Assembly: GCA_016789245.1 (NCBI GenBank)
Contig: JAEURM010000141.1
Span: 1 to 5,778 of the forward strand
Direction of reading: 5' to 3'
DNA from: Anaerolineales bacterium
Lineage (GTDB): Bacteria; Chloroflexota; Anaerolineae; Anaerolineales; UBA6663
DNA: 5,778 nt
The position numbers and the translations under genes are program-made. The stretch's first letter is position 1; each line of letters starts with the position of its first letter. The notes under the pieces are model-generated. The model worked only from the letters and a program-made list of their open reading frames with translations, was not told the origin of the DNA and made no database searches. This document shows, in pieces, positions 2,012 through 5,675 of this stretch.

Positions 2012-2020
2012 GTTATTTGC

Positions 2021-2057
2021 TCTCCCTCACCCCGGCCCTCTCCCGCTGGGAGAGGGG
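2021..2057. repeat. REP-like palindromic repeat in the lysC 5' leader
   Basis: The stretch contains CCCTCACCCCGGCCCTCTCCC-type sequence followed by its return arm. CCCTCTCCC (2036-2044) and GGGAGAGGG (2048-2056) form a perfect 9-bp stem with the loop GCT. This CCCTCACCCC/CCCTCTCCC pattern is familiar as an intergenic repeat in many bacterial genomes. It lies between the attenuator terminator and the lysC start, and so would be transcribed only when the terminator is read through. It is not followed by a T tract in transcript sense. Confidence 0.7.
2022..2027 (-). promoter_or_regulatory. Ribosome binding site of lysC, embedded in a repeat
   Basis: AGGGAG on the minus strand, ten bases before the lysC ATG (an alternative register, GGAGAG, gives eight). 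The purine run is the outer edge of the REP-like repeat at 2021-2057, so the repeat seems to provide the Shine-Dalgarno. The neighbouring C-rich arm of that repeat could pair with it and reduce translation. Confidence 0.55.
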
Positions 2058-2064
2058 GCGCAAG

Positions 2065-2096
2065 GAAACAAAAACGCGGAGCAGGTTGCTCCGCGT
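2065..2096 (-). terminator. Intrinsic terminator (attenuator) ahead of lysC
   Basis: On the minus strand, ACGCGGAGCA, loop ACC, then TGCTCCGCGT form a perfect 10-bp GC-rich stem (arms 2096-2087 and 2083-2074). It is followed by TTTTGTTTCC, so the RNA has the stem-plus-U-tract form of a Rho-independent terminator. It lies 53 bp upstream of the lysC start and about 32 nt after the stop codon of the threonine-rich leader frame. On the plus strand the downstream bases are not T-rich, so it is directional toward lysC. It is best read as the attenuator of lysC-asd. Confidence 0.88.
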
Positions 2097-2128
2097 GGGT
2101 TGAGTGCTTGAATTTTCAGCACCGCTAC

Positions 2129-2197
2129 TCAGTCCGAAGCCGCCTCCATGAAAGGAGTGGTAGTTCGCATAGTAGTGGTGCCAAACGTTGAAAACAT
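2129..2197 (-). CDS. Putative threonine-rich attenuator leader peptide of lysC-asd
   Basis: A 22-codon frame from ATG (2197-2195) to TGA (2131-2129). It begins MFSTFGTTTMRTTT and ends in PFMEAASD. Threonine occupies seven positions (4, 7-9, 12-14), with codons ACG, ACC, ACT, ACT, ACT, ACC, ACT, in two triple-Thr blocks. There are two internal Met codons. Such a density of the end-product amino acid, between a promoter and an intrinsic terminator ahead of an aspartate kinase gene, is the hallmark of a regulatory leader peptide; thrL of enterobacteria has the same logic without sequence similarity. The peptide itself probably has no function beyond ribosome stalling. There is no strong Shine-Dalgarno (only GGG seven bases upstream), and the predicted transcript start is very close to the ATG, so initiation may be leaderless or nearly so. 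Confidence 0.72.
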   Translation of the reverse strand: MFSTFGTTTMRTTTPFMEAASD

Positions 2198-2206
2198 CGT
2201 ACCCAG

Positions 2207-2236
2207 AAAATAACACGGGCGGGCGGGGGCTGTCAA
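2207..2236 (-). promoter_or_regulatory. Sigma70-type promoter for the lysC-asd leader
   Basis: The minus strand carries a consensus -35 TTGACA (2236-2231). Eighteen bases of very GC-rich spacer follow, then TATTTT (2212-2207), four of six matches to TATAAT; TTATTT with a 17-bp spacer is the alternative. The start site would fall near 2202-2198, just before the leader ATG at 2197. This also separates lysC-asd from the upstream gene cluster as its own transcription unit. Confidence 0.62.
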
Positions 2237-2283: not shown

Positions 2284-2370
2284 GCGGATTTGAAACACAG
2301 ATGGAACGGATTGAGATGGAAGAACACGGAGTTTTTTGTGTGATCCGTGCTACTCCGAGTTCTTCCGTGT
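2284..2370. repeat. Dispersed repeat, copy 1, with 15-bp hairpin at the 3' end of the upstream gene
   Basis: The left block (2284-2331, GCGGATTTGAAAC onward) is about 80 percent identical to 3443-3490. The right block (2345-2370) matches 3657-3682 at 23 of 26 positions. Inside it, arms 2318-2332 and 2352-2366 form a 15-bp stem with one mismatch around a 19-nt loop. The right block runs into the saccharopine-dehydrogenase-like gene and encodes its last residues, TRKNSE, and TAG stop. No T tract follows in transcript sense, so an RNA-stabilising or silent role is likelier than termination. Confidence 0.7.
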
Positions 2371-3429
2371 CTCAGCCAGTTCGGCCATCCGTTTTTCCAG
2401 CCACGTCAAGAACGCTTCCGGCTCTAAGGCTTGGGCGGGGGCTAACACACCGGCACGGTTGAAGCTTGACTCCAGAAATTTCTGCGCGGCGTAGGTGGCT
2501 ATGTGGGCGGTGAGGGCGTACGGCTCTGTGCCGCGGACCGTGCGCGTAAGTGTTTGCCCTGTAGCTGTGGCTTCAATTTGGATAGCGAAGCGGGCGGCGT
2601 TGGGCGGCGTGGCGGGCGGTGGCGGCGTGAGGTAACGGAACGCCAAACGCGTTAGCCAGCCGAGCGGCGTACGGAGTAAAACGCTCACCAGCGGTAGAAG
2701 CGCACCCACCACTCCCGCCCACTCCGGCGAGAGCGCCAGCCATGCTTGCACATCTTTTACCTGAACGTGCGCGGGCACGGTGATAATTTCTGAGCTGGGA
2801 AACGCCACCGCAGAGTAAGCGCGTTGGCCGATAAAACCATTACGCGGCGGGCCGCCCGGCAAGCGCCGCACTAATTTTCCATTGCGGTAGCCCAGCCATG
2901 AAACTGCAAAGGTGCGCAGGCCAGATAAACGCGTGCCGTAGCTCACCACACCGGATGGCAAAGCGTATATTACGTTCACGCTTTCCAGCGGCGCGGAAAT
3001 TTCACGCGCAAGCAGGGCCACCATACAATCAGCAATTGCCACTTCAAACGCGCACGCCGGAACAAGCGCCGCGCCGGAGGCTTTGGCCAGCGCATCATAC
3101 TGGCGCACACGGGCCACGTATGCCAATTCATTGGTGATATCCAAATAATGCACGCCGGCCGCCGCCGCGCGCTCTGCCACCGGCTCACCTAATTCTGTAA
3201 ACGGCCCCGCGCAGTTAATCAGCATGCGCGTATTTTTCACCAGTGCGGTGAGCGTTTCCGGTTGAGATACATCGGCTACCAACGTGGGTGGGCCGGAGGG
3301 AAGCGTTTGCGCCAGCGCGGCCAGCTTAGCGGCAGAGCGGCCCGCCAAACGGTACGGCACGCCAGCTTGTTCTAGTTGCTGGGCAATTTGTGAGCCAGTG
3401 TAACCGGTAGCGCCAAAGAGCGTAATCAT
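2350..3429 (-). CDS. Saccharopine-dehydrogenase-like NAD(P)-binding oxidoreductase
   Basis: A 359-residue protein starting MITLFGATGYTGSQIA, with the Rossmann dinucleotide loop GATGYTG at 6-12. LAGRSAAKL follows the second strand, and NCAGPF with HYLDITNE marks the rest of the saccharopine-dehydrogenase NADP-binding fold. This family also includes trans-acting enoyl reductases and many uncharacterised lipid-related reductases. A true lysine-pathway role is not implied by the neighbouring lysC, which has its own promoter. A hydrophobic stretch (VVGALLPLVSVLL and beyond, mid to C-terminal half) may associate with membrane or lipid. The ATG at 3429 gives the usual Rossmann start, but no Shine-Dalgarno is visible; the sequence before it is repeat-derived. 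The last six codons and stop come from a dispersed repeat. Substrate unknown. Confidence 0.85.
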   Translation of the reverse strand: MITLFGATGYTGSQIAQQLEQAGVPYRLAGRSAAKLAALAQTLPSGPPTLVADVSQPETLTALVKNTRMLINCAGPFTELGEPVAERAAAAGVHYLDITNELAYVARVRQYDALAKASGAALVPACAFEVAIADCMVALLAREISAPLESVNVIYALPSGVVSYGTRLSGLRTFAVSWLGYRNGKLVRRLPGGPPRNGFIGQRAYSAVAFPSSEIITVPAHVQVKDVQAWLALSPEWAGVVGALLPLVSVLLRTPLGWLTRLAFRYLTPPPPATPPNAARFAIQIEATATGQTLTRTVRGTEPYALTAHIATYAAQKFLESSFNRAGVLAPAQALEPEAFLTWLEKRMAELAETRKNSE

Positions 3430-3519: not shown

Positions 3520-3604
3520 GTCACTCCCCCACAAGAGCGGGGGCAGGCCGCGAAAGCGGGAGTTCATTTTGGGTTTTGTGGATACCCGCTTTCGCGGGTA
3601 TGAC
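3520..3604. repeat. MITE-like palindromic element between two genes
   Basis: An 85-bp unit bounded by imperfect terminal inverted repeats, GTCACTCCC at the left and GGGTATGAC at the right. Internally, CCGCGAAAGCGGG (3548-3560) and CCCGCTTTCGCGG (3585-3597) are perfect 13-bp inverted copies, and each can also fold alone (CCGC-GAAA-GCGG; ACCCGC-TTTC-GCGGGT). A further C5/G5 stem lies at 3526-3543. The GTCAT-ACCCGCGAAAGCGGG pattern is familiar as a dispersed intergenic element. It carries no coding sequence. The flanks 3491-3519 and 3605-3656 show nothing I can name. Confidence 0.65.
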
Positions 3605-3656
3605 GTTCCTTTAGAATATGGGCCGCATAAGGTGAAGTTTTAATTATCGTGTCTTT

Positions 3657-3682
3657 CCGCGCTACTCCGTGTTCGTCCGTGT
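3657..3682. repeat. Dispersed repeat, copy 2, right block, overlapping the FAD oxidoreductase 3' end
   Basis: It matches 2345-2370 at 23 of 26 positions. It overlaps the end of the FAD-oxidoreductase gene in the same reading frame as copy 1 overlaps its own gene, so it encodes TRTNTE and the TAG stop, against TRKNSE and TAG in copy 1. Confidence 0.7.
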
Positions 3683-5179
3683 TTTCAAAGGCCGTGTTTC
3701 AGATATTGTACTGCGTGAGGGCCGGTGCGCTTGCAGAATGTTGCGGGCCACACGCCAGCCGCCCAGCGTTACGCCCGCCGTGGATTGGCCGGGGAAAATT
3801 GAATCACCTACGAGCCACAAGTTGGGTAGGCCGGTGGCCGGGCCGCGCACGTTAAACAAAGATGTTTGCGGAAAGCCACCCACCATGCCCTGTGGCCGCC
3901 GCGTGTAAAACTCAAAGGTGGCGGGTGTACCGGGCAATTGCAAGCGGATGGCGGAACGGAGGCCGGGCAGGGCGCGTTCCGCCGCCGTAAGCATTTTCTC
4001 GGCGTACTCGGCTTTGCGCGCCTCATACGCGGCCAAATCTTTTTGCTGTAACGCCAGCCACGGCGCAATCACGGTGTGCGTGGAGAGCGTGGCCGCTCGC
4101 ATTCCGGCGGGCGCGCGGGCCACATCCTGTGCTTCAGAAAGAGAAATGAAAACGGAATTAGTTTCGCCCAGCGGCTGGCCGGGGTTGAGCACCACTTGGT
4201 GGTGGGTGGGCGTGTTAGCGGGCAACTGGGAAGTATCTAAACCGAGATACAGCGTGAACGCCCCCCACGTGGGTTCACGTTGCGCCACTTCGCGCCGCAA
4301 ACTTTGCGGTGCGGCCTCGGCCAAAACTTCCGCCAGCGCCCACGGCGTAAGGTTGCCCACAAACGCCTCTGCTTCCACACGCAGGCCTTTGGTAGTGTGG
4401 GCGGCCACTACGCGGCCATGCTTCACTTCCAGCCGCTCAACTTTTTGGCGGAAGAGCACTTGCCCACCGTTGGCGCGGATCCAATCCACCAGCGTTTGCG
4501 CCAACGCGCCGATGCCGCCACGCACATGGTTCACGCCGCGCCGTGGCAAATCTAGCGCCGCACTGCCGTACAACGCATGCGCGTACGGGCTGATGGTTTG
4601 CGCCGCAATCAGCAATTGCGCATCTACAAAGGTTTTGAAATCTAAATTTTGTTGCGCGCTCCCGGCTATGTGCGCTACGGTGCTGAACAGATGTGGTGCG
4701 GCCAGCAAAGTGCGAGGCCGGAGCGCGAGCGCCAAATCTGCCAAATCGCGGGCTGAAGTGGGCGGCCACGGAAAATGCCGAGAAGAAATGTCCCACGCAA
4801 TTTCAGCCAGTGATTCTTGGGTGCGCCAAAAACGCTCGGCGTGTGGGAAAGCCGCGCGGCGTTCCTCGCGCCAGCGTTCGGCCTCCGCCCACTGCGTTAC
4901 TGTTTTATCCGGCAGGTGCGTCACCCAGGCCGGGTCAACAGGCGTTACCGGCCACTGCACATCTAAAATTTCTGCCAAGCGCGCGTGCGGGCCATTGGCG
5001 GAGAAGCCGCCCACCAACGTTGCGCCCGCATCAAACCGGTAGCCTTGATGGAAAAATGTGCCTGCGCAACCGCCCGCGTACACGTGCGCCTCTAGCACAG
5101 TTACGGTGTGGCCGGCTTTGAGCAGTAAAGCGCCGGTGGTGAGGCCGCCCAGCCCTGCGCCGATGATGACGGTGTGCAT
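3662..5179 (-). CDS. Phytoene-desaturase/carotenoid-isomerase-like FAD-dependent oxidoreductase
   Basis: A 505-residue flavoprotein of the CrtI / CrtISO / retinol-saturase type. The N-terminus MHTVIIGAGLGGLTTGALL has the FAD-binding GxGxxG at 7-12, with the ribose-binding acidic residue E30 in TVLEAH. GGCAGTFFHQGYRFDAGATL follows, the usual second motif of these enzymes. The C-terminal flavin motif LWLVGDSIFPGQSTAGVTLGG starts near 454 and ends in RVARNIL. Length is typical. Family members desaturate, saturate or isomerise polyenes; which of these applies cannot be read here, and no other carotenoid gene is visible. The last 23 residues after RNIL are a non-family tail, and the final six (TRTNTE) are encoded by a repeat. 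The ATG at 5179 starts just before the flavin-binding strand; no Shine-Dalgarno is seen in the A-rich, repeat-derived leader. It lies 49 bp after the SRPBCC gene. Confidence 0.88.
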   Translation of the reverse strand: MHTVIIGAGLGGLTTGALLLKAGHTVTVLEAHVYAGGCAGTFFHQGYRFDAGATLVGGFSANGPHARLAEILDVQWPVTPVDPAWVTHLPDKTVTQWAEAERWREERRAAFPHAERFWRTQESLAEIAWDISSRHFPWPPTSARDLADLALALRPRTLLAAPHLFSTVAHIAGSAQQNLDFKTFVDAQLLIAAQTISPYAHALYGSAALDLPRRGVNHVRGGIGALAQTLVDWIRANGGQVLFRQKVERLEVKHGRVVAAHTTKGLRVEAEAFVGNLTPWALAEVLAEAAPQSLRREVAQREPTWGAFTLYLGLDTSQLPANTPTHHQVVLNPGQPLGETNSVFISLSEAQDVARAPAGMRAATLSTHTVIAPWLALQQKDLAAYEARKAEYAEKMLTAAERALPGLRSAIRLQLPGTPATFEFYTRRPQGMVGGFPQTSLFNVRGPATGLPNLWLVGDSIFPGQSTAGVTLGGWRVARNILQAHRPSRSTISETRPLKTRTNTE

Positions 5180-5228: not shown

Positions 5229-5675
5229 TTAAGTCTCTAAACTTCGCCGCGTGATGAAGCCGCGATACCAAAACAGAAATTGCAGGGCGGGTGGGTTGAA
5301 CAATAAACGGGCTAGTATGCCGCGTAAGCCGGATGGATAGTCATACACAACGTGTTCACGGACGCGGGTGGTATTCACGTCCACCATATTAAAACGGTGG
5401 GTGTGCCGCCACGCCGCTAGCGGGCCGCTTTGCTGAGTATCCGTAAAGCCGTGCAAGGTATCCACTTCAGAATGAACGGCCACCCAACGCACCGGCAAAG
5501 GGCCAAACCACAGCGTGAAATCTGCAATGGCGCCATCGGCCAAAGCATCTAGGCGGTGCAGTTGCACAAACAGTGGCGGCGGTGAGAGCTTTTTGAGGGT
5601 GGTGGTTGAGCGATGAAACTCCGCCACAGCGGCTAATGGAGCTTTGACTTTGAAAGTGTAGGTGAAGGTGGGCAT
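5229..5675 (-). CDS. SRPBCC / START-like ligand-binding protein
   Basis: A 148-residue protein starting MPTFTYTFKVKAPLAAVAEF. The pattern is that of the SRPBCC (polyketide cyclase/START-like) fold: a first beta-strand, a helix with 'apl-aavaeFHRS', a mid-chain strand series (DFTLWFGPLPVRWVAVHSEV), then VREHVVYDYPSG before a C-terminal amphipathic helix (LARLLFNPPALQFLFWYRG). That length and order fit the family. Such proteins bind hydrophobic ligands in a deep pocket; some are cyclases, many are unassigned, and no catalytic residues can be called. It precedes the FAD oxidoreductase on the same strand, which suggests a shared hydrophobic substrate. The ATG at 5675 gives a complete first strand; only a weak AGGT lies upstream. 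No signal peptide is seen. Confidence 0.8.
   Translation of the reverse strand: MPTFTYTFKVKAPLAAVAEFHRSTTTLKKLSPPPLFVQLHRLDALADGAIADFTLWFGPLPVRWVAVHSEVDTLHGFTDTQQSGPLAAWRHTHRFNMVDVNTTRVREHVVYDYPSGLRGILARLLFNPPALQFLFWYRGFITRRSLET

Follow-up and report, generated by a model that had tools for sequence, protein, structure and literature searches.

How the gene of a monofunctional aspartate kinase is controlled in a member of the Chloroflexota is the question raised by the locus considered here. Aspartate kinase controls the flow into threonine, methionine, lysine and isoleucine. The window (the whole analysed stretch of 5,778 nt, from an Anaerolineales bacterium) carries lysC and the beginning of asd on its minus strand (Table 1). 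An initial annotation proposed a threonine attenuator ahead of lysC-asd, and the parts that it listed are all present in the minus-strand sequence, namely a TTGACA promoter, a 22-codon frame with seven Thr codons and two Thr-Thr-Thr blocks, and a perfect 10-bp terminator with a T-rich tail before lysC. The proposal as a whole is supported, with the Thr frame and the terminator being kept together in relatives; two of the three refuting conditions that it named were checked and neither went against it. Judged from sequence comparison and modelled folds, a ribosome-mediated transcription attenuator responsive to threonine very probably controls lysC-asd. Two further features, a near-leaderless start and Met codons within the Thr clusters of the family, were absent from the initial annotation.

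Table 1. Features of the lysC-asd locus and its leader in the window.
Feature	Positions	Strand	Basis or remark
-35 element TTGACA	2236-2231	minus	promoter scan; TTGAC at the corresponding position in many relatives
-10 element TATTTT, with TG upstream	2212-2207	minus	promoter scan
Transcription start, predicted	about 2200-2198	minus	from spacing
Leader ORF, MFSTFGTTTMRTTTPFMEAASD followed by stop	2197-2129	minus	22 codons, 7 Thr, two TTT blocks; similar ORFs in relatives
Stop codon of leader ORF	2131-2129	minus	
Control codons Thr7-Thr14 (TTTMRTTT)	2179-2156	minus	six Thr and one Met
Predicted antiterminator 5' strand, in last leader codons	GG 2144-2143, GCUUCG 2140-2135	minus	fold of the RNA free of a stalled ribosome
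Predicted antiterminator 3' strand	CGGAGC 2093-2088, CC 2085-2084	minus	overlaps terminator 5' arm and loop
Intrinsic terminator hairpin, perfect 10 bp, loop of 3	2096-2074	minus	terminator scan and fold
Terminator T tract TTTTGTTT	2073-2066	minus	
Post-stop segment GTAGCGGTGC	2128-2119	minus	able to pair with 2181-2172
lysC, monofunctional aspartate kinase with ACT domains	596-2011	minus	471 aa
asd, aspartate-semialdehyde dehydrogenase, N-terminal part	2-574	minus	longest frame; cut by window end
Saccharopine-dehydrogenase-like gene	2350-3429	minus	upstream of lysC
CrtD/CrtI-like carotenoid desaturase-type oxidoreductase gene	3662-5179	minus	upstream of lysC

The true start of asd is probably an internal ATG rather than the start of its longest frame. 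An inverted repeat (GTGAAGCGTGAAACGTGA / TTACGTTTCACGTTTCACGC) surrounds the lysC-asd junction (534-598), a palindromic CCCGCTTTCGCGGG-type repeat lies between two genes (3533-3605), and an ORF of 148 residues (5229-5675, minus strand) gave no Pfam or NCBIfam match at E 0.001. Scanning the window against Rfam returned no credible match, the best being a microRNA family far below its cut-off (E 0.51).

Within the window the parts of the leader differ in how far each stands out. The promoter has 10 of 12 matching positions and an 18-nt spacer between its two elements; as 2.1 promoter-like sites are expected in the window and four occur, the match by itself is weak. When the 350-nt upstream region was shuffled 2000 times with its dinucleotides preserved, six Thr in eight codons never arose, at least five arose in 4 shuffles and at least four in 56. 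Terminator-like sites number five against 9.5 expected in a scan of the whole window, and the hairpin after the leader is alone in reaching 10 pairs. The 136-nt leader has a fold with z = -4.93, and none of 200 shuffles was equally stable. From the leader stop to the lysC ATG there are 117 nt, with the terminator in between. A second strong hairpin (GCGCCCCCTCTCCC..GGGAGAGGG..GGGAGAGC; 2012-2060, minus strand) stands between the terminator and the lysC ATG, where it overlaps the likely ribosome-binding site of lysC, and may be a dispersed palindromic repeat.

Upstream regions of lysC were drawn from the order, class and phylum of two Chloroflexi MAGs, and represent part of the matches, taken with the nearest LysC first. 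A short ORF within the last 350 nt counted as Thr-rich when a stretch of eight residues included four Thr or more. The check on relatives put forward by the initial annotation came out in its favour, since such an ORF is found in 55 of 122 distinct lysC upstreams (window included) against 3 of 122 on the reverse strand, these and the other counts and p values given here carrying no correction for kinship. Two of the 55 (L102 and L117) are probably chance frames. The remaining 67 upstreams lack a Thr-rich ORF at this cut-off, five of them having weaker Thr leaders by eye (L047, L055, L056, L058 and L068), and a further 59 class and phylum upstreams gave three on the forward strand and none on the reverse.

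The nearest LysC overall (G052) is 76% identical to that of the window, and the matches in the Chloroflexi MAGs are 64% identical (L001) and, over its first 61 residues, 62% identical (L029). In an 82-row LysC tree the window falls in a clade of 19 rows (support 98/96), 17 of which have the leader, and a second clade of 20 rows has it in 19. Overall, the leader is present in 36 of the 82 rows, a label that covers the by-eye leaders and three without a terminator match, and it requires 5 changes on the tree against a shuffled mean of 27.0, with none of 500 shuffles as low. Compared by sequence, the leader trait thus tracks the LysC tree. Aligned separately, the leaders of the two clades seem unrelated except for the Thr cluster and the layout, and the last Thr of the Thr-rich stretch lies 8-14 codons ahead of the stop in 42 of 47 leaders. 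L001 and L139, both in the window's clade, have no recognisable leader and are apparent losses. L076, L085 and L092 have runs of six or seven Thr codons near the ends of short ORFs, with a seemingly longer 5' UTR; no terminator was found in these three upstreams, which possibly make a different use of a Thr-rich leader.

The second constant part of the layout is the terminator. An intrinsic terminator follows the leader stop in 49 of the 55 Thr-leader loci, at a distance of 19-40 nt in 48 of these and 63 nt in one. Among the 73 upstreams outside the 49, a terminator was found within the last 250 nt in nine. Read on the reverse strand, 16 of the 49 leader upstreams have a terminator-like hairpin, so a hairpin of this kind is not rare in itself, while its position is. 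L117, which has a Thr-rich frame without a terminator, was left out of the promoter and Met counts.

The start of the leader ORF is also a recurrent feature. In the window, the ATG stands 9 nt past the -10 element, which would leave a 5' UTR of about 3 nt without room for a Shine-Dalgarno sequence. The promoter scan covered 59 loci (54 of the 55, and the five weaker by-eye leaders), ten of which gave no promoter. The ATG lies 7-14 nt past the -10 element in 39 of the 49 loci with a promoter call (at 10 nt in 19), an approximate count because calls were automatic (the first ATG after the best promoter) and L042, L083 and L141 are likely miscalls. With this spacing, the transcript would begin at the start codon or a few nucleotides from it. 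Many clade-B relatives read TTGAC-17-TAGAAT-ACCGCCCAAT-ATG or TTGAC-17-TATAGT-TGCGCCCAAT-ATG, in some cases a base longer or shorter, and a minority has 30-36 nt from the -10 element to the ATG (e.g. L059, L104, L115, L125). An ORF of leaderless type (a promoter with an ATG close behind) precedes lysC in 44 of 181 upstreams against 2 of 181 on the reverse strand. The leader ORF therefore looks leaderless or nearly so in sequence. Leaderless genes have been detected in 4 of 12 Chloroflexi genomes, at about 4.7% of genes, in the portion of the survey available (PMC3160421).

These parts suggest how the switch could work. RNA polymerase would start at the leader ATG or about 3 nt ahead of it, and the ribosome would begin on a leaderless or near-leaderless message. 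With ample charged tRNA-Thr, and probably tRNA-Met, the ribosome would reach the stop codon and cover the last leader codons, whereupon the terminator would fold and transcription would end before lysC. Under threonine shortage, the ribosome would stall in the TTTMRTTT block and leave 2144-2135 bare, and this stretch could pair with 2093-2088 before the terminator 3' arm exists, allowing the polymerase to continue into lysC-asd. Sequence and comparison show the ORF and the terminator together with the way they are ordered and spaced, the return of Thr clusters in widely differing leaders and, as a prediction for the family, the two-state fold; the exact 5' end, leader translation, stalling, termination and Met sensing are what we infer.

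The fold was modelled with a ribosome that covers the RNA to 13 nt past the start of the A-site codon, the remainder being folded before the terminator 3' arm is made. Across 49 loci, the terminator 5' arm is paired upstream with a mean probability of 0.78 when the ribosome stands on the Thr codons and 0.23 when it stands at the stop; the gap exceeds 0.2 in 46 loci and is reversed in none. Part of this contrast comes from the longer free RNA alone, as codon-shuffled tails reach a mean of 0.53. In every one of the 49 loci the real tail scores higher than the mean of its own shuffles, at p ≤ 0.05 in 17, and the duplex of tail and arm is better than codon shuffles (≤ 0.05) in 26 of 49. Swapping arms among 47 of the 49 loci (L102 and L060 were left out here and in the Thr-codon count) gave a summed energy of -645 (sd 21) against -803 for the loci's own arms, with none of 2000 swaps as low, and pairing with the own arm is stronger than with the mean foreign arm in 40 of 47.

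Once the 3' arm is present and equilibrium is assumed, terminator probability drops below 0.5 for 13 of the 49 loci when the ribosome is stalled and for none of them when it is at the stop; in the stalled state the terminator persists in the other 36 loci, and in the window its probability is 0.93 stalled against 0.95 at the stop. Since the terminator is favoured at equilibrium in these 36 loci even when the ribosome is stalled, the model needs co-transcriptional kinetics, in which timing decides. Timing decides the choice of fold in other attenuators too.

For the window itself, the stalled state is predicted to pair GG..GCUUCG with CGGAGC..CC over an inner hairpin (-20.3 kcal/mol), and with the ribosome at the stop the terminator stays (-17.9 kcal/mol). 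GCUUCG occurs in the leader tail of 9 of 13 aligned clade-A sequences (window included), with variants of one or two bases in the other four. Taken on its own, the window's switch does not exceed chance (p 0.377 against codon shuffles, with sequestration at 0.68 against 0.35), its tail:arm duplex shows no excess over shuffles (fraction 0.277), and its tail has no preference for its own arm (-12.7 against a mean of -14.1 with clade-B arms). The closest relative (L035) does stand out in the fold test (p 0.016), though not in the duplex test (fraction 0.253). The modelled argument for a switch rests on the family, the window alone being insufficient. The initial annotation had assigned the role of the freed segment to the bases right after the leader stop, a role which the fold gives instead to the end of the ORF. 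Their complementarity to the Thr codons (2181-2172) at 9 of 10 positions is present, and does not go beyond chance (p 0.13 in the window) nor is it conserved. Pairing between the ORF and the post-stop segment (1:2) was rejected as a conserved element, with 0 of 40 loci at p ≤ 0.05 and a mean p of 0.56 (40 of the 49 loci).

Covariation in the two helices is another comparison suggested by the initial annotation. In a clade-B alignment of 17 sequences (19 candidates, less L080 and L089), 99.3% of cells are paired in the terminator and 89.0% in the antiterminator; sliding the latter lowers its figure to 27-52%, a control that leans towards the structure drawn from the consensus. Columns 6, 73 and 83 change together in both helices, with C/U in a leader Arg codon accompanying changes in both terminator arms. 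Against 500 shuffles, the terminator stands out in three of five measures (no shuffle as high), while double-changed pairs (493 shuffles as high) and pair types (498) are at shuffle level. Evidence of covariation in the antiterminator is thin: two of the five measures, pairs with double changes (145) and pair types (258), do not rise above the shuffles, the numbers of paired cells (19) and of double-changed cells (24) do so modestly, and the covariation score, reached by 2 shuffles, does better.

Two other explanations of the same parts need to be weighed. The terminator could serve the saccharopine-dehydrogenase-like gene, with the Thr-rich frame being a chance ORF or an unrelated small protein; that gene shares the strand of lysC and its end (2350) is some 250 nt short of the terminator, and the window's alternative fold alone does not beat codon shuffles. 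A promoter match between the end of the gene and the terminator speaks against this, and a chance ORF is hard to reconcile with the excess over the reverse strand (55 against 3), the narrow spacing to the terminator, a trait that tracks the LysC tree and a Thr cluster that no shuffle reproduced, so we regard this explanation as scarcely credible. It is also conceivable that the leader ORF does read threonine, but acts through translational coupling, Rho or a sensed nascent peptide, the hairpin being a by-product. Leaderless upstream ORFs with repeated codons have been discussed in mycobacteria as affecting downstream translation, in the available parts of two reports (PMC4633059; PMC9031893), and a second strong hairpin stands directly before lysC in the window. 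Set against this are the T-tract hairpin in 49 of the 55 loci, the fit of its 5' arm to the leader tail, and a leader stop that, on general knowledge, lies too far from the lysC ATG for simple coupling, with the terminator between them. This mode of action we consider very unlikely, and the threonine-responsive transcription attenuator is the reading we prefer.

The attenuator may read more than threonine. Threonine and methionine share the homoserine branch below aspartate kinase. Across 42 distinct eight-residue Thr clusters (47 of 59 leaders; L134 and L141 left out), Met makes up 46 of the 138 residues other than Thr, compared with 41 of 711 residues elsewhere in the same leaders (Fisher p 3e-17, without kinship correction), while Ile accounts for 7 and Lys for none of the 138. 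Met is present in 29 of the 42 clusters and recurs in both LysC clades, and an alternative definition of the cluster (47 of the 49 loci) gave 43 Met and 2 Ile. The Thr codons in the clusters are ACC (98), ACT (79), ACG (33) and ACA (15); only ACG is one transition away from Met, and the others, 192 of 225, are nearer to Ile, so drift is not a ready explanation for Met. From these sequence counts, threonine and methionine are probably sensed together by the leader.

A broader statement, which we advance tentatively as close to evenly balanced, is that the main gate of the aspartate pathway in one large group of Chloroflexota is a leaderless attenuator that integrates Thr and Met codons in one stall site (TMTMTTT, TTTMRTTT), no such leader having been seen at hom or thrC. 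The Met codons could instead go unsensed, as reserve starts for a leaderless message or as partners in RNA pairing, in which case the threonine attenuator may still stand. Leaderless messages need a 5' AUG and some leaders have a nearby second AUG (e.g. L042), and CCAUG in some clade-B clusters could, by eye, pair with CAUGG in the tail. The concentration of Met inside the clusters, with little Ile and no Lys, and its recurrence in both clades although most cluster Thr codons are one transition from Ile, weigh on the other side; we lean against unsensed Met codons while taking them as a serious possibility. If both amino acids are indeed read, the leader would sense the two of them through a 70S ribosome initiating at a bare 5' AUG.

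The leader appears to be particular to lysC among the genes scanned. No comparable leader was found before hom (22 loci) or thrC (22 loci) in 21 leader-bearing genomes, where at least four Thr in eight occurred in 4 of 44 loci and five in none (L180 has no sequence ahead of it, and weaker paralogues are among the thrC loci). Before trpE (20 loci, three of them paralogues below the cut-off) and ilvB (18 loci), in 20 of these genomes, an ORF with four Thr in eight was found once. Taken together, the four genes gave four Thr in eight in 5 of 82 loci, none with five, and a leaderless-type ORF in 2 of 82. Leaderless leaders as a general device for trpE and ilvB were rejected, as the sole candidate in 38 loci is a nine-residue ORF without a codon run. 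One locus (G158, contig C1, 1773441-1776192) has a thrC match in the same orientation as lysC and some 400 nt ahead of it, with the leader between the two genes. In the order sample, 107 of 201 genomes have a LysC match, which is single in 98 of the 107, and there may be a divergent second aspartate kinase in these genomes. The other 94 genomes had no LysC match at E 0.001, for which incomplete genomes, a loose initial scan or a different aspartate kinase may account.

The arrangement resembles enterobacterial thrL (RF00506, Thr_leader) in its Thr-rich leader peptide, intrinsic terminator, alternative helix and place before the first enzyme of the aspartate pathway. The thrL leader reads threonine and isoleucine from a normal 5' UTR with a Shine-Dalgarno site, whereas the Chloroflexota leader has Thr with Met, looks near-leaderless and stands on a monofunctional lysC-asd. 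The RF00506 covariance model found no match in the window up to E = 5, the window's own leader has no Ile, and the Thr clusters of the 47 leaders, with 46 Met and 7 Ile, do not show a Thr/Ile mix of the RF00506 type. T-box elements and the lysine riboswitch, the latter on lysC, are other RNA devices for amino-acid genes; the present case differs in that the conserved element is an ORF and the window has no credible Rfam match to either. The Thr_leader family is among those listed in the available part of PMC3766115.

Other parallels come from the Actinobacteria. The ilvBNC attenuator of Corynebacterium glutamicum (IlvL), compared here by description and not by sequence, likewise has its transcription start at or near the leader start codon, as predicted in the window, but concerns branched-chain amino acids and other genes. 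For ilvB, the transcription start lies one nucleotide from the start codon of the leader peptide and mutations support attenuation, according to the portion of the report available (PMC11857589). Mycobacterial polycysteine ORFs are also leaderless, short and rich in repeated codons, with downstream genes under attenuation (Canestrari et al., 2020; PMC9031893, in part), and in the cysA2 case the Cys codons are at the C-terminal end of the ORF (PMC4633059, in part). The Chloroflexota leaders differ in having a Thr/Met cluster, which in 42 of 47 leaders ends 8-14 codons before the stop, and an intrinsic terminator.

As far as the available text of a 2010 survey goes, demonstrated leader-peptide systems were confined to Proteobacteria and Actinobacteria until the survey itself added a case in Firmicutes (PMC2965389); a later Firmicutes example appears in part of PMC5794164. 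In the available portion of a 2005 survey of Actinobacteria, operons for threonine or methionine are reported to have no conserved RNA element ahead of them (PMC1262725). Literature searches under the name Chloroflexi found no leader-peptide transcription attenuation, threonine or otherwise, for the phylum, and no attenuator whose leader peptide combines threonine and methionine codons was found. The principle of attenuation is textbook; within the reach of these searches, the phylum, the missing ribosome-binding site and the Thr and Met code look new.

With strong comparative support, leader-peptide attenuation appears in the Chloroflexota, on the gate gene of the aspartate pathway. Short ORFs of this kind, which are expected to escape annotation, gain a meaning. 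The family offers about 50 natural variants in which the layout is kept while the sequence drifts, and these make it possible to test how a leaderless message is reconciled with tight coupling, whether two amino acids are sensed, and how antiterminator, terminator and codons evolve together.
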